From the NCBI GenBank assembly GCA_040388625.1, contig JAZKBK010000001.1, positions 1 through 64,000 on the forward strand: 64,000 bases of DNA. Direction: 5' to 3'. The translations under genes and the position numbers were made by a program. Shown here piece by piece: positions 28,001 to 58,061 of the stretch (positions within the stretch are counted from its first letter, which is position 1; each line of letters opens with the position of its first letter). The notes beneath the pieces are model-generated. The model was not told the DNA's origin, did no database searches, and worked only from the letters and a program-made list of their open reading frames with translations. This DNA is from Gemmatimonadota bacterium (lineage in GTDB: Bacteria; Gemmatimonadota; Gemmatimonadetes; Gemmatimonadales; Gemmatimonadaceae).

Positions 28001-28737
28001 AAGCTCCTCGGCGGCGCCGCATTGATTCGATAGCCAAAACCGCGTACGGTTTCGATCATGTCACCGGAGGCGCCGAGCTTGGTGCGAAGTCGCTGTACGT
28101 GCATGTCGACGGTGCGTGTCTGTATGTCTGGAGCAGCCTCCCACACTGTTTCCAGCAGCAACGTGCGCGCAAGCACGCGGCCACGACGCTCCGCCAGTGT
28201 CAGCAGGAGCTTGTATTCGGTGGGAGTGAGATCGATCAGATCGCCATCGACTCGCACCTCGTGAGCAGCGCGGTCGATCCGCACGGCTCCCACCCTGACG
28301 ACGTCGTTCTGTACCGTGGCTGGTGCACGAAGCCGCCTGAGGATCGCGCCAACGCGGAGCGTGAGTTCCTGCGGTGAGAATGGCTTGGTGAGATAATCGT
28401 CGGCACCGAGGACCAGGCCGCGCACCCGATCGGGTTCGTCGCGTCGCGCGGTAAGCATCAGAACCGCGATGTTCGCAGTGGCCGGATCCGCGCGCAGTTT
28501 CTCGATGACCTCGAATCCCGACATCCCGGGAAGCATGAGGTCGAGCACCATGAGCGCAGGCGACTCGGCGCCGGCCTTCGCCAGTGCCTCCGGTCCCGTG
28601 CTGGCTGTCGAGACACCATAGCCCGCTCGGGCGAGATGGTAAGCGACAAGAGCGACTATATCCGGTTCGTCATCGACAACCAGTATTCGCTCCGTAACTG
28701 CGCCGTTGTCGTCGTTTCCAGACATCATGATCGTCAC
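27997..28737 (-). CDS. phoB: Phosphate-regulon response regulator PhoB
   Basis: OmpR/PhoB-type regulator of 246 residues: receiver domain with acidic pocket VDDEPD, phosphoacceptor Asp in LMVLDLMLPG (about 66) and Lys in DDYLTKPFS; then a winged-helix DNA-binding domain with LTPTEYKLLLTLAERRGRVLAR and RTVDMHVQRLRTKLG. A GTG start at 28737 is used with GGGAAG upstream; ATG codons at 28728 and 28725 are alternatives. It is translationally coupled to phoR. A Pho-box-like site 40 bp upstream suggests autoregulation. Confidence 0.94.
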   Translation of the reverse strand: MTIMMSGNDDNGAVTERILVVDDEPDIVALVAYHLARAGYGVSTASTGPEALAKAGAESPALMVLDLMLPGMSGFEVIEKLRADPATANIAVLMLTARRDEPDRVRGLVLGADDYLTKPFSPQELTLRVGAILRRLRAPATVQNDVVRVGAVRIDRAAHEVRVDGDLIDLTPTEYKLLLTLAERRGRVLARTLLLETVWEAAPDIQTRTVDMHVQRLRTKLGASGDMIETVRGFGYRINAAPPRSL

Positions 28738-49283: not shown

Positions 49284-49934
49284 TTGATCAATCAGTCGAC
49301 CGTCGCGTTCACGACGCTCGCGTTCACATCGCTTCTCGCGATCGTGAATCCATTGAGCGCAGTTCCACTTTACGTTACAGCGACTTCCGATCTCGACGAC
49401 AAGCAACGTGCGTCCACGCTCCGGCTCGCCGTTGCAACCGGAATAATCGCGCTGGTCGCATTTGGACTCGCGGGCACGTACATACTGCGTTTCTTCGGAA
49501 TAACTACGTACGCGTTCCGCATTGCCGGCGGAATCATCTTCCTTGGAATCGGCAGCGACATGCTCAAGGCGCGACGATCGCGCGATCGAACCAGCCGCGG
49601 TGAACAGGAGGCCGCCGAGCAGAAGGCGGAGGTCGGGATCATTCCTCTTGGAATACCGACACTCGCCGGGCCGGGCTCCATTACCACTGTGATCACGCTC
49701 ACTGCACAAGCGGACACGCGTATGGAGCTGGTGGGTCTGTACGGCGCGATCGTTGCGGTGATGGTTCTGTCGTGGATGGTGTTGGCCGTGGCGCCATTCA
49801 TCGTTCAACGCGTCGGCCGTACCGGAATGAACGTGATGACGCGGTTGATGGGTCTCCTTATCATGGTAATTGGTGTGCAGTTCATCATCGAGGGTGTCCG
49901 GACTGTTGCACTCGACATCCTGCGTCACGCGTGA
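49284..49934 (+). CDS. MarC-family (UPF0056) membrane protein
   Basis: Inner-membrane protein of 216 residues with six hydrophobic helices. Family features are FTSLLAIVNPLSAVPLYV at the start, FRIAGGIIFLGIGSDML, and IIPLGIPTLAGPGSITTVITL in the middle. Biochemical function is unknown. E. coli MarC was once linked to antibiotic resistance, but that link was later withdrawn. The start is TTG, 12 bases after purK, and the stop overlaps the GTG of the following fusion gene. Confidence 0.92.
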   Translation: MINQSTVAFTTLAFTSLLAIVNPLSAVPLYVTATSDLDDKQRASTLRLAVATGIIALVAFGLAGTYILRFFGITTYAFRIAGGIIFLGIGSDMLKARRSRDRTSRGEQEAAEQKAEVGIIPLGIPTLAGPGSITTVITLTAQADTRMELVGLYGAIVAVMVLSWMVLAVAPFIVQRVGRTGMNVMTRLMGLLIMVIGVQFIIEGVRTVALDILRHA

Positions 49935-52900
49935 CCGACGACTATCTGGACGACGAGGAACCGTCCGGCCCCGTATTTCTGGATAGAACCGGGCGCCGCT
50001 GGCCGCGCGTGCGTCGTTTGGCGACAGTGATTGGCGTGGTGACCACGCTGCTGTTGCTGTCACTTGCAGGTATCATGGTTCTCGCGCCGCCTGCGCTGCC
50101 CGCGTTTCATCCTGCTCAGACAACCGTCACGCCGCGGTTCGTCGGTGCGCGCGAAAACAGACGCCGCCGGACCAAACGCAGCGAGCTGTATGCCGCGCTC
50201 CAGGTGCAGAAGACTGCCCGTTCCATTCGCAAGGCCGCCGCCGCGATCGAGCGTGAGTTGACCGGAGTGCCGAGTGCGCGTCAGATACGCGCCGGTTTCT
50301 ACGTGTGGTGGGCCGACAACTCGTTTGCGTCGTTCCAGCGCAACTATGACGATCTCGACTGGATAGTATCGGAGTGGGGGTACCTGTCGGCTGCTGGCGA
50401 CAGCGTCGATCTAAGCATGATTCAGAAGGACACCAGCTTTTTCGGCATGTACGACTCGATTCCGTCGCCGCCGAAGGTGCTGCTCCTCGTCAACAACATA
50501 GATCGCAAGACGCAGTTGTTCAGCTCGGCGGGGGTTACGGCGATGCTTGCGACGCCCGTCGCGCGGAGCAAGGTGGAGAATCAGATCGTCGGCGCAGTTC
50601 TGCACTACAAGTTCGCCGGTGTGACGATCGACTTCGAGAACGTGCCGGAGAGCTCCACCGCCAATCTGGTGCTGTTCCAGCGCGAGCTTGGCGCGATGCT
50701 GCATGCGCACAAGTTGATGCTGACGCAGACGGTAGGAGTCAACACCGCCCCGCGCGACCTGAAGGAGTTCTCCGCGGTCAACGACTATCTCTTTCTGATG
50801 CTCTACGACGAGCACTATGGAAAGGGCGACCCCGGGCCGGTCGCGAGCCAGCAGTGGTACGTCGATCGTGCGCGCGAGATGTTGCGAAGCGTGCCGGCGA
50901 AGAAGGCGATCTTCGCACTTGGTGCCTACGGCTACGATTGGAACGACGCGGGGCCGGCGAATTCGGGCGAGTCGTACACGTTTCAGGAAGTGCTTGCCAA
51001 GGGGCGCGATAATCCGGGCAGCTCTCACATGGGCTTCGACCGGGAAGCGCTCAACCCTTACATGACCTGGACCGACCCGGATTCCACCGACCATCTCGTA
51101 TGGTATCTCGACGGGGCGAGCGCATACAATCAGGTGCGCGCAGAGCGCGCGCTGGGCGGAGCGGGCTATGCTGTCTGGCGGCTCGGCGCGGAAGACCCGG
51201 CGCTGTGGAAGGCGGTCGCTGAAGATCGCGTTGCAGACGCTGCGAGCGTGCTGTCGGACATTCCGGCTGGCTACGAGACCGAGTTCATCGGCGACGGCGA
51301 GATACTTCAGATCGTTGCATCGCCGCGCACTGGACGACGCGTCGTCACACCAGACACCTCACGCGGGGTGATCACCAACGAGCGGATCGTCGACTACCCG
51401 TCGCCCTACATCGTCCGGAAGTACGGCAAGTCGGAGCACGAGGTCACGCTGACTTTCGACGACGGTCCCGATGGGACATGGACACCGCAGATTCTCGACA
51501 CGCTCGAGTCCAGACACGTGATCGGAACGTTCTTCGTGATCGGGCGCAACGTCGAGGCGCACATACCGTTGATGCGACGGATAGTGCGCGAAGGGCATCT
51601 GTTCGGCAATCACACATTCACGCATCCCAATCTCGCGCTGACGTCCGATTTCGTCACCAAGCTCGAGATCGACGCGAACCAGCGATTGCTCGAAGCGATT
51701 CTGGATCGTCGCTCGTTCTTCTTCCGGCCGCCGTATTTCGGCGATGCCGAGCCCACGACTACAGACGAACTGGTCCCAGTCGACATTGCGAGCAAGCGCG
51801 GCTACGTGACGGTTGGTCTGCATATCGACGCCGAAGACTGGCAGCCGATATCGGCGAATCAGATCGTCAAGAACGTCATGGATCAGCGCTACTACGGCGG
51901 CGTCGTGACTGCTGGCGGACTGCGCTCGGGTGGCAACGTGATACTGCTGCACGACGGCGGCGGCAATCGCGCTCAGACGGTGAAGGCGCTCGGTCCGATC
52001 ATCGACTCGCTGCGCGCGCACGGGGATACGGTCGTTCCGCTCTCCCAGCTGGCGGGAATCTCCGAGCAGGAGGCGATCCCGGGACTTCCGCCTCGTAGCG
52101 CGGTGACACGCGGGATCGAGCTCGCCACGTTCTCATTCGTCAGTGGGCTCGAATGGACACTCTACTGGCTGTTTTTCATTGCAGTGGTGGTTGGCGCGAT
52201 ACGACTGGTCGTCATCATCATACTTGCGACATACCAGCGATATCACTCGCGCAAGCCTACGCCGGATTACACACCGTCGGTGACGATCATCGTACCCTCG
52301 TACAATGAAGAGCGCGTCATAGTATCGACCGTGAGGAGCCTGTTGAACCAGGAGTATCGCGGCGAGCTCAACATTCTGATCGTCGATGATGGATCGCCGG
52401 ACGAGACGTTCAACGTTGCGCAGCGCGAATTCGGCGACGATCCACGCGTTACCGTGCTGCGCAAGGAAAATGGGGGCAAGGCCAGTGCGCTGAACTTCGG
52501 AATCGCGCGCGCTCGCGGCGAGATCATAGTATGCCTCGACGCCGACACGCAGTTCACGCCGACCACGGTCGAGCGGCTCGTCGCACCGATGAGCGATCAG
52601 AAGGTCGGAGCAGTTGCCGGAAATGCGAAGGTCGGTAATCGCCACAACATCGTCACGCGTTGGCAGGCGCTGGAGTACGTGACCAGCCAGAATCTTGAGC
52701 GGCGCGCATTTGCCGTGCTGAATGCAATAACCATAGTTCCCGGTGCTGTCGGCGCGTGGCGCAAGTCCTACGTGCAGGCGGTCGGCGGATTCAGCGATGA
52801 CACGCTCGCGGAGGACCAGGATCTGACCTGGGCGCTGGGCGAGGAAGGGGTGCGAGTCACGTACGCCGATGACGCCATTGCGTACACGGAAGCGCCGGAC

Positions 52901-53461
52901 ACTCTCAGCACGCTGATTCGCCAGCGGTTCAGATGGTCATTCGGAACGCTTCAGTCGGTCTGGAAACACAAGAAGATCACCTTCCGGCCAAAGTACGGCG
53001 CCCTCGGGATGATCGCGATGCCGAACGTCTGGATCTTTCAGCTGTTCTACACCGCGATATCACCACTCGCCGACATCCTGTTCGCGTGGAGTCTCTTCTC
53101 GGTTCTGATTGCGCGTTACCAGCACGGTGACCGGTACGCGTTGAGCAATCTCGAAGACGTGCTGAAGTTGTACGTCATATTTCTCGTGGTTGACTGGCTT
53201 GCGGCCGTCGTTGCGTTCCTCATGGAGCCTGGTGAGGAAAAGGCGCTCACCTGGCTGGTGCTGATTCAACGCTTCGTTTTCCGGCAGACGATGTATTGGG
53301 TCGTGGTAAAGTCGATTGCGGCGGCGCTGCGTGGACACGTCGTGGGGTGGGGCAAACTGGAGCGCAAGGGAATGAATCTCCTGCCGACCAGCGCGCACGC
53401 GTCGAGTCATGCACCCACCCCGCCACCGGCGCAGGCCGTTCCACCCGGTCCAGTGGCGTGA
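49931..53461 (+). CDS. GH18-NodB deacetylase-GT2 glycosyltransferase fusion
   Basis: Membrane protein of about 1176 residues with three enzyme modules. After a TM helix (about 29-53) comes a GH18-like domain (about 116-436, acidic motif GVTIDFENV). A NodB polysaccharide deacetylase follows (about 503-700; TFDDGPDGTW, HTFTHPN), then a TM segment (about 735-765). A processive GT2 synthase follows (VTIIVPSYNEERV, CLDADTQF, AEDQDLTW, QRFRW) with further C-terminal helices. This suggests synthesis, trimming and deacetylation of an N-acetylglucosamine-type polymer by one chain. The GTG start overlaps the MarC stop. A Pro-rich tail ends the protein. Confidence 0.92.
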   Translation: MTDDYLDDEEPSGPVFLDRTGRRWPRVRRLATVIGVVTTLLLLSLAGIMVLAPPALPAFHPAQTTVTPRFVGARENRRRRTKRSELYAALQVQKTARSIRKAAAAIERELTGVPSARQIRAGFYVWWADNSFASFQRNYDDLDWIVSEWGYLSAAGDSVDLSMIQKDTSFFGMYDSIPSPPKVLLLVNNIDRKTQLFSSAGVTAMLATPVARSKVENQIVGAVLHYKFAGVTIDFENVPESSTANLVLFQRELGAMLHAHKLMLTQTVGVNTAPRDLKEFSAVNDYLFLMLYDEHYGKGDPGPVASQQWYVDRAREMLRSVPAKKAIFALGAYGYDWNDAGPANSGESYTFQEVLAKGRDNPGSSHMGFDREALNPYMTWTDPDSTDHLVWYLDGASAYNQVRAERALGGAGYAVWRLGAEDPALWKAVAEDRVADAASVLSDIPAGYETEFIGDGEILQIVASPRTGRRVVTPDTSRGVITNERIVDYPSPYIVRKYGKSEHEVTLTFDDGPDGTWTPQILDTLESRHVIGTFFVIGRNVEAHIPLMRRIVREGHLFGNHTFTHPNLALTSDFVTKLEIDANQRLLEAILDRRSFFFRPPYFGDAEPTTTDELVPVDIASKRGYVTVGLHIDAEDWQPISANQIVKNVMDQRYYGGVVTAGGLRSGGNVILLHDGGGNRAQTVKALGPIIDSLRAHGDTVVPLSQLAGISEQEAIPGLPPRSAVTRGIELATFSFVSGLEWTLYWLFFIAVVVGAIRLVVIIILATYQRYHSRKPTPDYTPSVTIIVPSYNEERVIVSTVRSLLNQEYRGELNILIVDDGSPDETFNVAQREFGDDPRVTVLRKENGGKASALNFGIARARGEIIVCLDADTQFTPTTVERLVAPMSDQKVGAVAGNAKVGNRHNIVTRWQALEYVTSQNLERRAFAVLNAITIVPGAVGAWRKSYVQAVGGFSDDTLAEDQDLTWALGEEGVRVTYADDAIAYTEAPDTLSTLIRQRFRWSFGTLQSVWKHKKITFRPKYGALGMIAMPNVWIFQLFYTAISPLADILFAWSLFSVLIARYQHGDRYALSNLEDVLKLYVIFLVVDWLAAVVAFLMEPGEEKALTWLVLIQRFVFRQTMYWVVVKSIAAALRGHVVGWGKLERKGMNLLPTSAHASSHAPTPPPAQAVPPGPVA

Positions 53462-53708
53462 TGCGGCACGATGTCGTCGAGTGCATGCCGGCTCTCCGGG
53501 ATGTGGCGTGCCCTGAGCGCACGCTGGATACAGGATACAGAAGCGCAAGGCATCGTCGAGCCATTTGTTCAGGTATCGGCGGAGATCGGTCACAACTGAG
53601 CCGTTAACGCGGGTCCGGGGTATTCGTCTCAGAGTTCGACAACCTGCGCAACCATTTTCGTTTCGGCGTCGTCTAATCGGAAACCACCTCGATCAAAGAC
53701 AGCAACCA
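53462..53708. other. Intergenic stretch before second kinase
   Basis: The 247 bp show no convincing gene on either strand. The kinase frame is open through part of it, but the Arg-rich translation has no family likeness. I see no terminator with a T tract after the fusion gene. Confidence 0.5.
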
Positions 53709-55118
53709 GTGACCTCCTCCATACCCGAAATCATGCGCGCCGAGCTTGGCGACGCGTATGTCATCGAGCGAGAGCTCGACGGAGGAATGTCATGCGTCTT
53801 TGTCGCCGAGGACCGTGAGCTGGCTCGCCGCGTCGTCATCAAGGTTCTGCACCCGCATCTCGCCGCGTCTGTTTCGGTCGAACGGTTCAGGCGCGAAATC
53901 CTCACGGTTGCGGGGCTCCAGCACCCGCACATAGTCGGGGTTCTTCGCACGGGCACTGCGGCCGGCTTGCCGTATTTCATCATGCCGTACGTCGACGGCG
54001 AATCCCTGGCCAGACGCATCGCATCGGGGCCCATGCCCGTGCGCGACGCCGTTGCGATTCTCAAGGATGTGGCTCGCGCGCTTGCATTCGCCCACGAGCG
54101 CGGCGTGGTGCATCGCGACATCAAGCCGGGAAACATCCTTCTCGCGGGTGGCTCGGCGATGGTCACGGACTTTGGCGTCGCCAAGGCGCTGTCGTCGGCG
54201 CGCCGCACCGGCCCGGACGCCGCAGGGCGTGGCCTGACGACCGACGGCGCGTCGATCGGGACGCTCCTCTACATGGCGCCAGAGCAGGCCGCCGCCGATC
54301 CGGACATAGACGGACGGGCTGACATCTACGCGCTCGGCGTCACTGCTTACGAGATGTTGACTGGCTCGCCACCATTCGCCGGTCTCTCGGCGCGAGCGAT
54401 GCTGGCAGCGCGGATGAGCACGCTCCCGCCGGCGATCTCCACGGTTCGCTCCGACGTTCCGGCTGAGCTGAACGATCTCATCATGCAGTGTCTCGCGACC
54501 GATCCGGCCGATCGGCCAGCGAGTGCGCAGGACCTGGTCGATGCGCTTGAGCAGCCGGGCGTGGTCAGCGGAGAGTTTCTCAGGGCCGCGCACCCCAGAA
54601 TGCGCCGGCGCGGACTGGCGGGAATTGCGGCGGGCCTCGCGCTCGTCGCCATTGTCGGTGCAGGCGTTGCGAGCAGCCGCAGCCATGCTTACGGCAGTGC
54701 GAGCGTGCGCACGGCGGCAATGGTGACGCCGCTGGGTGAGATTGCCGTCGTCCCGTTCGTGGACCTTGGCTCGGATGCGGCTGATTCGAGCGTGGCAATT
54801 GGGATAACCAATGCCGTTGCCGACAACCTCACGAAGTCCGCGCATCTCAAGGTGATCTCACCGACTGCGTCCGCTGCGCTCGTCCGCGGCATACGAGCCG
54901 GTACGACTTCGGTCAGCAAGACGCCTCCCAAGCTGCTGCTCGAGGGCACCGTGCAGCGTGAAGGTTCCAAGCTGCGGGTCACTGCACGGCTCAGCAACGC
55001 GTCGGATGGCGTGATGCGCTGGGCCGATGTGTACGATCGCGACGGCCGCGATCTGTTCAAGGTGACGGACGACATCGCTGCTGCGATCGTTGCATCCATC
55101 AAGCATCCTTCCGCCTAG
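53709..55118 (+). CDS. Membrane Ser/Thr protein kinase with TolB-like extracytoplasmic domain
   Basis: About 469 residues. Kinase domain with ATP lysine in VVIKVLHPHL, HRDIKPGNILL, DFG in VTDFGVAKAL and APEQAAADPDIDGRADIYALG. The glycine loop is altered to ELDGGMSCVF, where relatives usually have GGGGMS. A TM helix is at about 306-324 (GIAAGLALVAIVGAGVA). The outer domain (IAVVPFVDLGSDAADSSVAIGITNAVADNLTKSAHLKVIS) is TolB/FlgO-like. There are no TPRs, unlike the kinase at 19026-21563. The GTG start gives VTSSIPEIMRAELGDAY, typical of this kinase group. Confidence 0.92.
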   Translation: MTSSIPEIMRAELGDAYVIERELDGGMSCVFVAEDRELARRVVIKVLHPHLAASVSVERFRREILTVAGLQHPHIVGVLRTGTAAGLPYFIMPYVDGESLARRIASGPMPVRDAVAILKDVARALAFAHERGVVHRDIKPGNILLAGGSAMVTDFGVAKALSSARRTGPDAAGRGLTTDGASIGTLLYMAPEQAAADPDIDGRADIYALGVTAYEMLTGSPPFAGLSARAMLAARMSTLPPAISTVRSDVPAELNDLIMQCLATDPADRPASAQDLVDALEQPGVVSGEFLRAAHPRMRRRGLAGIAAGLALVAIVGAGVASSRSHAYGSASVRTAAMVTPLGEIAVVPFVDLGSDAADSSVAIGITNAVADNLTKSAHLKVISPTASAALVRGIRAGTTSVSKTPPKLLLEGTVQREGSKLRVTARLSNASDGVMRWADVYDRDGRDLFKVTDDIAAAIVASIKHPSA

Positions 55119-55323
55119 CGCGCCTGTCTTCCGCGCGCTTTCGCCCCCCGGAAGTCGATCATAACAAATGTTGATGAATTCTTAGCATCGGCGATCGACG
55201 AATGCCGGCTCACTGGCGTGTGCGCTGCAACGGCGACGTTTGCGAACGATCGGTGTACGCCTTCTTGCCGAATTTGTCGTGCTTCGGCCACAGCGAGTGA
55301 CGCTGTTCAAACGTACCGATTCG

Positions 55324-56817
55324 ATGCCTCTTTCAAACCGATTGCGTACCTCCGCTCTTTCCATCGCAACTCTCTGTCTCGCAGCGTGCACATATGGGCC
55401 GCCGAGTGTCAACGGCGTTCCTGGAGCGCCAGCCTCGCCAAGTACGACCTGGACGCGCCCCAGCCACGGCATTCCTTCTGAACCACCGCAGACGGTTTCT
55501 GCACTTCCTCCCGACGTTCTCGAGCGCGCCAGCCAGCTGACCCTCGGCGATGTGATCGACGTCGCGTTGCGTAACAATCCCGTGACGCGCGTGTCGTGGG
55601 CGCAGGCACGAGCGGCCGCCGCGGAGTACGGATCGACGCGTGGTTCGTTTCTCCCGGCAATTAACGGATCCGCGACTGTGTCCAGGACCAAATCCGTTCC
55701 CGTGAACGGTGGGGAGTCGATCGAGCGCACGCAGGTCAATCCCGCGCTCACGCTGAGTTATCTGTTGCTCGACTTCGGTGGCCGCAGCGGCACGATCGAC
55801 GAAGCACGACAGAATCTCTTCGCCGCCGATCTCACGCACAACGCGACGATCCAGAATGTAGTGCTGCAGGTCGAGACGGCGTATTTCACCTACATGGCGA
55901 ACAGCGCGTTGCTGCGCGCTGAGCGTTCGGCGATCGCCGAAGCGCAGGCGAATCTCTCGTCGGCGCAACAGCGAGACAGCGTCGGTCTCGCGACCATCGC
56001 CGACGTTCTGCAGGCGCGGACCGCGCTGGCACAGGAACAACTCAATCTCGAATCCATCCAGGGCAGTCTGCAAACGGCGCGCGGCAATCTCGCGGCTGCG
56101 ATGGGGATTCCCGCGAACGTGTCGTACGATCTCGGGCCACTGTCCGGCGCTGTTCCCGTACGCGCGGTATCGGTGACGGTGGATAGTCTGATAGCCGACG
56201 CGCTTGCGCGCCGACCGGACCTCGCCGCTGCTCGTGCTCAGGCGGCAGCGGCATCGGCGGAGATCAGAGTTGCCAAATCCTCGGCGTTGCCGGCGCTCAC
56301 ATTTGGAAGTACAGCCGGCAGGACCTACGCCGATCCGAGCAAGTACGGGGGCGGGTCGTACGGAATTAGTCTCGGTGTGTCGGTGCCCATCTTCAGCGGG
56401 TTCTCGCAGCAGTACAACATCGTCGCTGCACGTGCGCGTGCCGACGCGGCAACGGCTCAGGCTGACATCCTGCGGCAGGAAGTTACGACGCAGGTCTTCA
56501 CGTCATATTACGGACTCCAGACAGCTGGGCAGAGAGTGATAACCGCGGATGCGCTGCTGGCGAGCGCAGAGCAGTCCGAGCAGGTCGCGGCGGGACGATA
56601 CCGTGAGGGAGTCGGGAGCATCATCGACCTTCTCACGGCACAGTCCGCCCTGGCCAACGCGCGCGCGCAGCAGGTTCAGTCGCGCTGGCAGTGGTACACA
56701 GCACTGGCACAACTCGCGCACGATGCCGGAGTGCTCGGCACACGTGGCGAAACGCCATTCCCTTTCGTGTCGAGCACCGACACGACTCCAACGTCGCAGA
56801 CCGTCCAGCATCCATGA
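55324..56817 (+). CDS. TolC-family outer-membrane efflux lipoprotein
   Basis: Outer-membrane channel of an RND efflux system, about 497 residues. A lipoprotein signal (ATLCLAAC, Cys about 19) is followed by the two OEP repeats: LTLGDVIDVALRNNPVTRVSWAQARAAAAEYGS, and DALARRPDLAAARAQAAAASAEIRVAKSSALPAL. The long helical segments are rich in Ala and Gln. The chosen ATG gives a clean signal peptide. Its stop overlaps the adaptor start (ATGA). Confidence 0.94.
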   Translation: MPLSNRLRTSALSIATLCLAACTYGPPSVNGVPGAPASPSTTWTRPSHGIPSEPPQTVSALPPDVLERASQLTLGDVIDVALRNNPVTRVSWAQARAAAAEYGSTRGSFLPAINGSATVSRTKSVPVNGGESIERTQVNPALTLSYLLLDFGGRSGTIDEARQNLFAADLTHNATIQNVVLQVETAYFTYMANSALLRAERSAIAEAQANLSSAQQRDSVGLATIADVLQARTALAQEQLNLESIQGSLQTARGNLAAAMGIPANVSYDLGPLSGAVPVRAVSVTVDSLIADALARRPDLAAARAQAAAASAEIRVAKSSALPALTFGSTAGRTYADPSKYGGGSYGISLGVSVPIFSGFSQQYNIVAARARADAATAQADILRQEVTTQVFTSYYGLQTAGQRVITADALLASAEQSEQVAAGRYREGVGSIIDLLTAQSALANARAQQVQSRWQWYTALAQLAHDAGVLGTRGETPFPFVSSTDTTPTSQTVQHP

Positions 56818-58061
56818 GTTATAGACAGCAGTCGTCGTTAACAATATTCGTATCGATCGTGCTCGCAGCGGGCTGCTCGAAAGCCCCGCCGGAGAAGCAG
56901 CCAAAGGTCCCGGTGATCGTTGCCACAGCGCGACGGACCGCCGTGCCCTACACACTGACAACCAACGGAGTGGTCGAGCCACTTCAGACCGCCGCCGTCG
57001 AGGCACAGGTAGGCGGAATCCTGACGCGTGTCGCGTTCAAGGAAGGTCAGGTAGTCAAGGCTGGCGACGTTCTCTTCCAGATCGATGCGCGCCCCTACGT
57101 CGCGGCCCTGGATCAGGCCCGGGGCCAGCTCGCCCGCGATCAGGCACAAGCTGCGAGCGCGGCACGCGACTCGGTGCGGTATTCGGCGCTGGTACAGAAG
57201 GATTATGTAACCCGTTCCCAGGCCGATCAGATCGTTGCAACTGCTGCTTCGGCCGCCGCGACCGTGGACGCGGATCGCGCCGCTGTCGAGCGTGCACAGG
57301 TCGACGTGTCGAACTGTACCATCCGCGCACCGATTTCGGGCCGCACCGGCGCGCTCCTGGTTCGTCAGGGAAACCTGGTAAAGGCCAACGCATCGACTCC
57401 GATGGTCGTGATAAATCAGATCGAACCGATCCTGGTACGATTCTCGGTGCCGCAGGGCGATCTGCCTGATATTCAGCGGTACTTCGGAGCTGGCAAGCCG
57501 CTGGCCGTCCAGGCGCTCGCGTCCGAAGGGCCGGGATCGACACTGGACGGCACGCTCGCGTTCGTGGATAACGCGGTCGACTCGACTACCGGTACCGTTT
57601 TGCTCAAGGCCAAGTTCGAGAACAGCAAGTCGACGCTGTGGCCAGGCCAGTTCGTGGACGTGACGCTCCGGCTGTACATCGACCCGAACGCGCTCACCGT
57701 TCCGTCTGCGGCGGTACTCACGGGCCAGAACGGATCGTACGTATTCACCGTGGATAACGCCGGCGACGCGCGCCAACAGCCGGTGCAGGTCGTCAGAACC
57801 GCTGACACTCTCTCCGTGATTGGAACCGGGCTCAACGACGGCGATCGTGTAATAACGGACGGCCAGTCACGTCTGGTCGCGGGGTCCAAGGTCGTCATAC
57901 GACCGGCGAGCGCCGCCGGAGCAACCCCACGAATTGCTGATTCCGGCGCGGCCGGCGCAGCCAACCCATATGCGCCGTCGGGATCGCCGTCGACTGCTGG
58001 CCAACCCTCTGGAACTGCAGGACCAGGGAGCGGTAGCAGCAAACCGGGGCACCGACCATGA
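56814..58061 (+). CDS. RND efflux periplasmic adaptor (membrane-fusion) lipoprotein
   Basis: Links the RND pump with the outer-membrane channel; about 415 residues. A lipobox lies at IVLAAGC (Cys about 20). The biotinyl-lipoyl-like halves are AAVEAQVGGILTRVAFKEGQVVKAGDVLFQIDARPY and NCTIRAPISGRTGALLVRQGNLVKAN, with a helical hairpin between. A Gly/Ser/Pro-rich low-complexity tail of about 60 residues is unusual for the family. It overlaps both neighbours by 4 bases. Confidence 0.94.
   Translation: MSYRQQSSLTIFVSIVLAAGCSKAPPEKQPKVPVIVATARRTAVPYTLTTNGVVEPLQTAAVEAQVGGILTRVAFKEGQVVKAGDVLFQIDARPYVAALDQARGQLARDQAQAASAARDSVRYSALVQKDYVTRSQADQIVATAASAAATVDADRAAVERAQVDVSNCTIRAPISGRTGALLVRQGNLVKANASTPMVVINQIEPILVRFSVPQGDLPDIQRYFGAGKPLAVQALASEGPGSTLDGTLAFVDNAVDSTTGTVLLKAKFENSKSTLWPGQFVDVTLRLYIDPNALTVPSAAVLTGQNGSYVFTVDNAGDARQQPVQVVRTADTLSVIGTGLNDGDRVITDGQSRLVAGSKVVIRPASAAGATPRIADSGAAGAANPYAPSGSPSTAGQPSGTAGPGSGSSKPGHRP

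Follow-up and report, generated by a model that had tools for sequence, protein, structure and literature searches.

A three-module GH18-NodB-GT2 protein of Gemmatimonadota as a candidate PgaA-free synthase of a cationic envelope glycan

Described systems and the three-module gene

The PgaABCD and IcaADBC systems for poly-N-acetylglucosamine (PNAG) combine an N-acetylglucosamine (GlcNAc) polymerase, a deacetylase and, within PgaB, a hydrolase domain (PMC5933820), divided among separate proteins that include the PgaA pore and PgaD. The same three activities are predicted for a single gene at 49931..53461 (+) of a 64,000-nucleotide stretch of a Gemmatimonadota genome (assembly GCA_040388625.1, contig JAZKBK010000001.1, positions 1 to 64,000; here called the window). 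This gene is a single open frame with a GTG start and encodes an 1176-residue protein with GH18, NodB (CE4) and GT2 modules. The PgaB hydrolase is described as a distinct family without the GH18 catalytic motif (PMC5933820), and blastp of the window GH18 or NodB module against E. coli PgaB gave no match at E<0.1.

Fusions of synthase and deacetylase are already known, so that the separation of PgaB and PgaC assumed in a first-pass annotation of this DNA is not universal. One published CE4-GT2 fusion is Streptomyces MatB; PNAG staining depends on it, and dispersin B served as a test (PMC5972031, PMC4391728). MatB has an extracellular CE4/NodB domain, a transmembrane (TM) helix and then an intracellular PgaC-like GT2 in one chain, and the same layout and order are found in the window protein by Pfam, hydropathy and AlphaFold2. 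Unlike the window protein, MatB has no GH18 described in the available parts of these papers, its host is monoderm, and it is co-transcribed with matA; the window protein is only 37-39% identical to the compared Streptomyces homologue. Gram-negative GT-PgaB fusions without pgaA or pgaD were reported by Bundalovic-Torma et al. (2020), who suggested novel regulation and other export routes (PMC7112194). These also join a deacetylase to glycosyltransferase (GT) domains, and the accessible text mentions neither a GH18 module nor linkage to mprF. Rhizobial NodB-NodC has a deacetylase followed by a GlcNAc synthase in the same order and matched the window protein in tandem, but these are separate proteins with a chito-oligosaccharide product and no GH18. 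The added GH18 module is what sets the three-module family apart. Literature searches, judged on titles and the starts of abstracts, found no description of either the GH18-CE4-GT2 chain itself or a three-module protein beside mprF.

Sequence features and the analogy with MatB suggest that the three-module protein most likely functions in the manner of a PNAG or chitosan synthase fused into one chain and independent of PgaA, of the MatB type with an added GH18. A probability of roughly 0.6 is given to a processive synthase in the inner membrane whose product, made without PgaA, is a cationic, partly de-N-acetylated envelope glycan of the poly-GlcNAc type. The cytoplasmic GT2 would polymerise GlcNAc from UDP-GlcNAc and extrude the chain by way of its own membrane helices, NodB on the periplasmic side would strip some N-acetyl groups from the emerging chain to leave cationic glucosamine residues, and the N-terminal GH18 would cut or trim the chain. 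Its role would be the tuning of positive envelope charge under stress, in some lineages alongside MprF, VirJ/AcvB or a two-component system. The protein is not assigned to the Pga/Ica family, since it scores below the PgaC equivalog cut-off and no PgaA match reached cut-off in the genome. If this reading is true, a PNAG- or chitosan-like glycan is made by one protein, versus the four-gene pga operon, in many diderm bacteria that live in soil or in association with plants, and a large family whose members are publicly annotated just as 'glycosyltransferase' or 'glycosyl transferase family 2' gains a function. It also raises the question of how the chain passes the outer membrane, or whether it is periplasmic.

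Modules, catalytic residues and membrane layout

Pfam places the three modules on one chain, all above cut-off and in the order originally proposed: GH18 at 203-420 (47.5 bits, cut-off 29.6), Polysacc_deac_1 at 500-602 (96.5 bits, cut-off 23.1) and Glycos_transf_2 at 785-946 (120.2 bits, cut-off 23.3). The first-pass annotation had also called for a check of the catalytic residues of the GH18-like domain, and named a loss of such residues in more than one module as a refutation. All examined GH18, CE4 and GT2 residues are present, and from sequence all three modules are predicted to be active. Conservation of these residues was surveyed across 122 related loci (L008-L120, L135-L140 and L143-L145).

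The GH18 module is a (beta/alpha)8 domain of the SleL/YdhD type at residues ~116-441 (50276..51253, +), identified by Pfam, PDB sequence matches, Foldseek and VIA-align. Its motif TIDFE is without the first aspartates of the classic chitinase motif but retains the catalytic pair, D234-x-E236 (50630..50638, +). In PDB sequence alignments, YdhD, SleL and 5jh8, which are solved relatives, have this D-x-E as well. D234 is present in 118/118 loci aligned there and E236 in 117/118, the exception being a Sulfitobacter plasmid copy. Besides the catalytic DxE, the YD pair and the floor tryptophan are present in the window protein, as Y292, D293 and W416. Among relatives, position 292 is Y in 105/119 and F in 14/119, and W416 is kept in 118/120. 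The closest GH18 relatives include SleL and YdhD by PDB sequence matches and Foldseek, with VIA-align Z scores of 29-30 to SleL, and of 31 and 30.6 to the bacterial chitinases 4q6t and 5jh8. Thus the proposed GH18-like hydrolase stands as far as its intact catalytic residues are concerned, whereas a PgaB-type identity does not, since the module is SleL/YdhD-like. A dead GH18 was rejected for the window copy and nearly all of its kin, as the catalytic residues are kept. In the Sulfitobacter plasmid copies (L120:7497-10562, L145:5383-8754) the GH18 region has lost catalytic residues or fails to align and looks degenerate; a DUF3131 gene lies directly downstream of both.

The PgdA-like NodB/CE4 deacetylase module spans residues ~498-713 (51422..52069, +) by Pfam, NCBIfam and PDB matches. 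The CE4/NodB motifs FDDGP, HxxxH, R, DW and LxH are all present in the window protein. Residues D510, D511, R599, D636, W637 and H674 occur in 122/122 relatives, and H561 and H565 in 121/122, with a gap in L092. The best matches of this module are peptidoglycan GlcNAc deacetylases, the closest solved relative being 5o6y. Together with the SleL and YdhD likeness of the GH18 part, this favours an alternative in which peptidoglycan is the substrate of both modules, as it is for SleL/YdhD and PgdA, and the GT2 does no more than decorate wall precursors. Such a role appears quite improbable, as the best-conserved part of the protein is a processive-type GT2 with translocation helices that belongs to no lipid-II enzyme family, and a two-module relative without GH18 is reported to be needed for PNAG (PMC5972031).

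The GT2 synthase module lies at residues 782-1005 (52274..52945, +), as indicated by Pfam, NCBIfam and its fold. QxxRW is the signature of processive beta-glycosyltransferases, and here (Q998, R1001, W1002; 52922..52936, +) it is conserved in 122/122 relatives, as are D819, D820, D870, D872, E961 and D962. Residues 743-1140 superpose on the Chlorella-virus hyaluronan synthase (Z 30, 372 residues, rmsd 2.9). By direct comparison the GT2 is 39% and 38% identical to the Streptomyces and Kocuria CE4-GT2 proteins, 30% to E. coli PgaC and, over a shorter span, 32% to NodC. NCBIfam ranks PgaC/IcaA (TIGR03937) first for the protein, with 187 bits (191 in the genome search) against an equivalog cut-off of 422.3, while NodC (TIGR04242) scores 130.6 bits against a cut-off of 550. 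A beta-1,6 (PNAG) linkage in preference to beta-1,4 is not shown by these scores, both being far under their cut-offs.

It is possible, if rather unlikely, that the protein is a synthase of a chitin- or chitosan-like (beta-1,4) oligomer or polymer, namely a NodB-NodC fusion with a length-setting chitinase. This alternative concerns the linkage and overlaps with the poly-GlcNAc reading, so that the confidences given to the two are not exclusive. The usual substrates of GH18 and PgdA/NodB domains are beta-1,4 GlcNAc chains, rhizobial nodB-nodC has the same order and a tandem match, and the GH18 has a chitinase fold (Z 31). The PgaC/IcaA profile nevertheless scores above NodC (187 versus 131 bits), the two-module relative MatB gave PNAG, and the calcofluor-stained beta-1,4 glycan of Streptomyces is reported to be independent of MatB (PMC5972031).

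Hydropathy gives TM-like segments at residues 27-59, 736-770, 1042-1061 and 1075-1101. The first (50009..50107, +) has a positive N-terminal flank, predicting an N-in orientation, and AlphaFold2 has a helix there at 23-51 with low confidence. The second (52136..52240, +), seen by both hydropathy and AlphaFold2, would return the chain to the cytoplasm, and both methods also support the C-terminal membrane helices at residues 1025-1133 (53003..53329, +). The AlphaFold2 model (30 homologues; mean pLDDT 74.5) contains folded GH18, NodB and GT2 modules and C-terminal helices, and its pTM of 0.54 makes the placement of the modules relative to each other unreliable. Because of the module order relative to the TM segments, GH18 and NodB are predicted to lie outside and GT2 inside, and the TM-like segments and AlphaFold2 helices thus support the orientation given in the first-pass annotation.

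Distribution, PgaA and neighbouring genes of relatives

Among 395 sampled genomes of the phylum, 108 match the protein at E<=1e-60, and 83 genomes (87 places) carry the three-module protein as judged from match coverage, the remainder having GT2 only or small fragments. The 87 places include the window's own genome and two-piece matches joined in G107 and G390, and contig ends truncate a few of them; matches to the C-terminal GT2 alone were left out, as were small fragments (G375, G393, G362:C50, G383:C371 and others). The nearest relative, at 85%, is the Gemmatimonadota locus L037. Relatives that match along the whole length or close to it, at 39-46%, come from Acidobacteriota, Cyanobacteriota, Pseudomonadota, Planctomycetota and bins titled Bacillota and Ca. 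Taylorbacteria, and there are plasmid copies at 37-41% in Deinococcus (Deinococcota) and Prevotella (Bacteroidota). In a quick FastTree tree most rows fall together with others of their phylum, which would fit an old family, and its long branches make deep placements unsure. Since whole-length homologues are found across the phylum and in other phyla, a chance or frame artefact or a mis-assembly was ruled out; residue conservation and the coding-like G+C at codon positions 1/2/3 (0.63/0.44/0.76) agree with this.

The compared monoderm proteins, from Kocuria (L139) and Streptomyces (L140), are without GH18. It is suggestive only that GH18 presence marks diderm and its absence monoderm hosts, as too few monoderms were sampled for this comparison, and a metagenome bin titled Bacillota (L071) has, contrary to this idea, the full three-module protein. 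On a Kocuria rosea plasmid (L139:3668-6973) the two-module CE4-GT2 gene converges on a separate chitinase-annotated gene (GH18, below the Pfam cut-off), which looks as if the third module were unfused.

The PgaA model TIGR03939 matched nothing over cut-off in the window's genome, where it gave two weak matches, and was positive in the E. coli control; a full pga system in this genome was therefore rejected. In 390 phylum genomes, which with the 395 above form overlapping draws of unproven identity, 10 match PgaA at E<=1e-30. All 10 are in another family, and none is among the 83 three-module genomes. As kinship alone could cause this separation, it tells no more than that genomes keep the protein without PgaA. 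With PgaA-type exporters in that other family (f5; L131-L134 and others), both designs occur within one phylum.

MprF (PF09924, searched in the 390 genomes) lies within 5 kb of 15 of the 87 three-module places, directly downstream in 11 and divergent in 4, versus ~0.2 expected (79 same-genome pairs). Over 123 loci, a strong MprF match is nearby in 16 (9 Gemmatimonadota and 7 sphingomonads), and VirJ is found in both groups too; a weak MprF match in an acidobacterial locus (L062) was left out of the count. Neighbours were scored by tblastn with annotated neighbour proteins. At some loci the flanks are cut or just 1.5 kb long, which makes the linkage counts lower bounds, while related genomes inflate them. 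On the FastTree tree over 123 rows, the MprF label needs at least 8 changes.

In Gemmatimonadota and sphingomonads, mprF, virJ/acvB and an OmpR-type two-component system repeatedly cluster around the three-module gene (L144:7812-16532, L146, L147, L149, L150 and L152-L155). In Sphingobium TomMM7A the three-module gene is followed by virJ, mprF, a response regulator gene and a kinase gene, each junction being an overlap or a 4-base gap. In Gemmatimonadota it is followed by mprF and then virJ (L146, L149, L150), or it forms a divergent pair with mprF, after which come a response regulator and kinase (L153); the kinase is also seen in L152 and L154, and a cut response regulator in L155. The recurrence of this association in two phyla, beyond the window, is new here. 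Because the gene of relatives sits with mprF, virJ or a two-component system, which adjoin it at 15/87 phylum places and in some sphingomonads, the description of the locus as a self-contained polymer system was too strong.

VirJ and AcvB are reported to be lysyl-phosphatidylglycerol (Lys-PG) hydrolases, and Agrobacterium has an operon of lpiA, an mprF homologue, with acvB (PMC13197417; PMC13135905). The same pair of a Lys-PG synthase and a periplasmic Lys-PG hydrolase is found beside the three-module gene of relatives, and the available part of the Agrobacterium report mentions no glycan synthase in the operon (PMC13197417). In a 2015 archaeal survey, a polysaccharide deacetylase and a glycosyltransferase were noted next to a homologue of the MprF flippase (PMC5898192). 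A charge-tuning role of the glycan is likely because several lineages encode the gene with MprF, VirJ/AcvB or a two-component system, and the linkage suggests that the purpose of the glycan is positive charge. The mprF-virJ link points to a testable function, the joint lipid and glycan control of envelope charge.

The same linkage would suit lipid chemistry, and the chief alternative is a cationic glycolipid, in which the GT2 puts GlcNAc on a membrane lipid (e.g. phosphatidylglycerol), NodB deacetylates it, MprF or another flippase moves it, and GH18 removes or recycles the sugar. It is the chief alternative because a glycosyltransferase, a deacetylase and a flippase of the MprF-like or AglD type go together in two tested cationic glycolipid systems: HexSDF of C. 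difficile, which the two-component system HexRK controls (PMC10128005), and GpgSDF of P. aeruginosa (PMC12713373). Unlike the window gene, these systems have separate genes, other GT types and a lipid product, and no GH18 is mentioned in the parts of the reports available. HexS is annotated as a monogalactosyldiacylglycerol synthase and GpgS as GT4, neither of which is a processive GT2, whereas the QxxRW motif in 122/122 relatives and the hyaluronan synthase fold are features of a processive synthase. The linked MprF proteins retain their own LPG-synthase domain, and a chitinase-fold GH18 fits a chain better than a single lipid-borne sugar. A glycolipid product is therefore considered unlikely.

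Under the poly-GlcNAc reading, the three-module synthase, MprF, VirJ/AcvB and the OmpR-type two-component system may tentatively be seen as an unrecognised envelope-charging module that occurs in rearranged forms in Gemmatimonadota and sphingomonads, making a glucosamine polymer in step with Lys-PG; single copies such as that of the window would act at a distance from mprF. This broader proposal is somewhat less probable than not. If true, diderm bacteria would have a route to a cationic glycan that needs one protein and no PgaA.

Several points weigh against a PgaA-free, charge-tuning poly-GlcNAc synthase. No outer-membrane exporter was identified by the PgaA profile search of the genome, and no polymer has been shown for any GH18-containing member found. 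The PgaC score of 187 bits is far under the cut-off of 422 with NodC close behind, so the linkage may be beta-1,4. SleL-type GH18 and PgdA-type CE4 enzymes are best known for acting on peptidoglycan. No MprF lies within 5 kb at 72/87 places, and the MprF-linked fraction may itself be inflated by related genomes. The window copy is not beside mprF, the PF09924 matches of its genome being on another contig.

The gene in its window

The GTG start of the three-module gene overlaps the stop of an upstream gene for a MarC-family membrane protein (49284..49934, +), and a Ser/Thr protein kinase gene follows downstream (53565..55118, +). Both neighbours are kept in the same-genus locus L037, and in the genus purK-marC lies upstream and the Ser/Thr kinase downstream. 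The genes flanking the window copy are purK, marC, the Ser/Thr kinase, an outer-membrane efflux protein and an HlyD-type protein. The other NodB-domain (five) and PgaC-profile GT2 (13) matches of the genome all fall outside the 64-kb window, so that the absence of another exopolysaccharide gene nearby, as first noted, holds as far as tested. PADLOC gave no match.

A response regulator at 28024-28698 (-), 21.6 kb from the three-module gene, is 38% identical to one beside a Sphingomonas copy, a likeness that may be generic. The TolC-type outer-membrane efflux protein and HlyD-type fusion protein genes, at 55240-58061 and overlapping as listed, probably form an efflux system.

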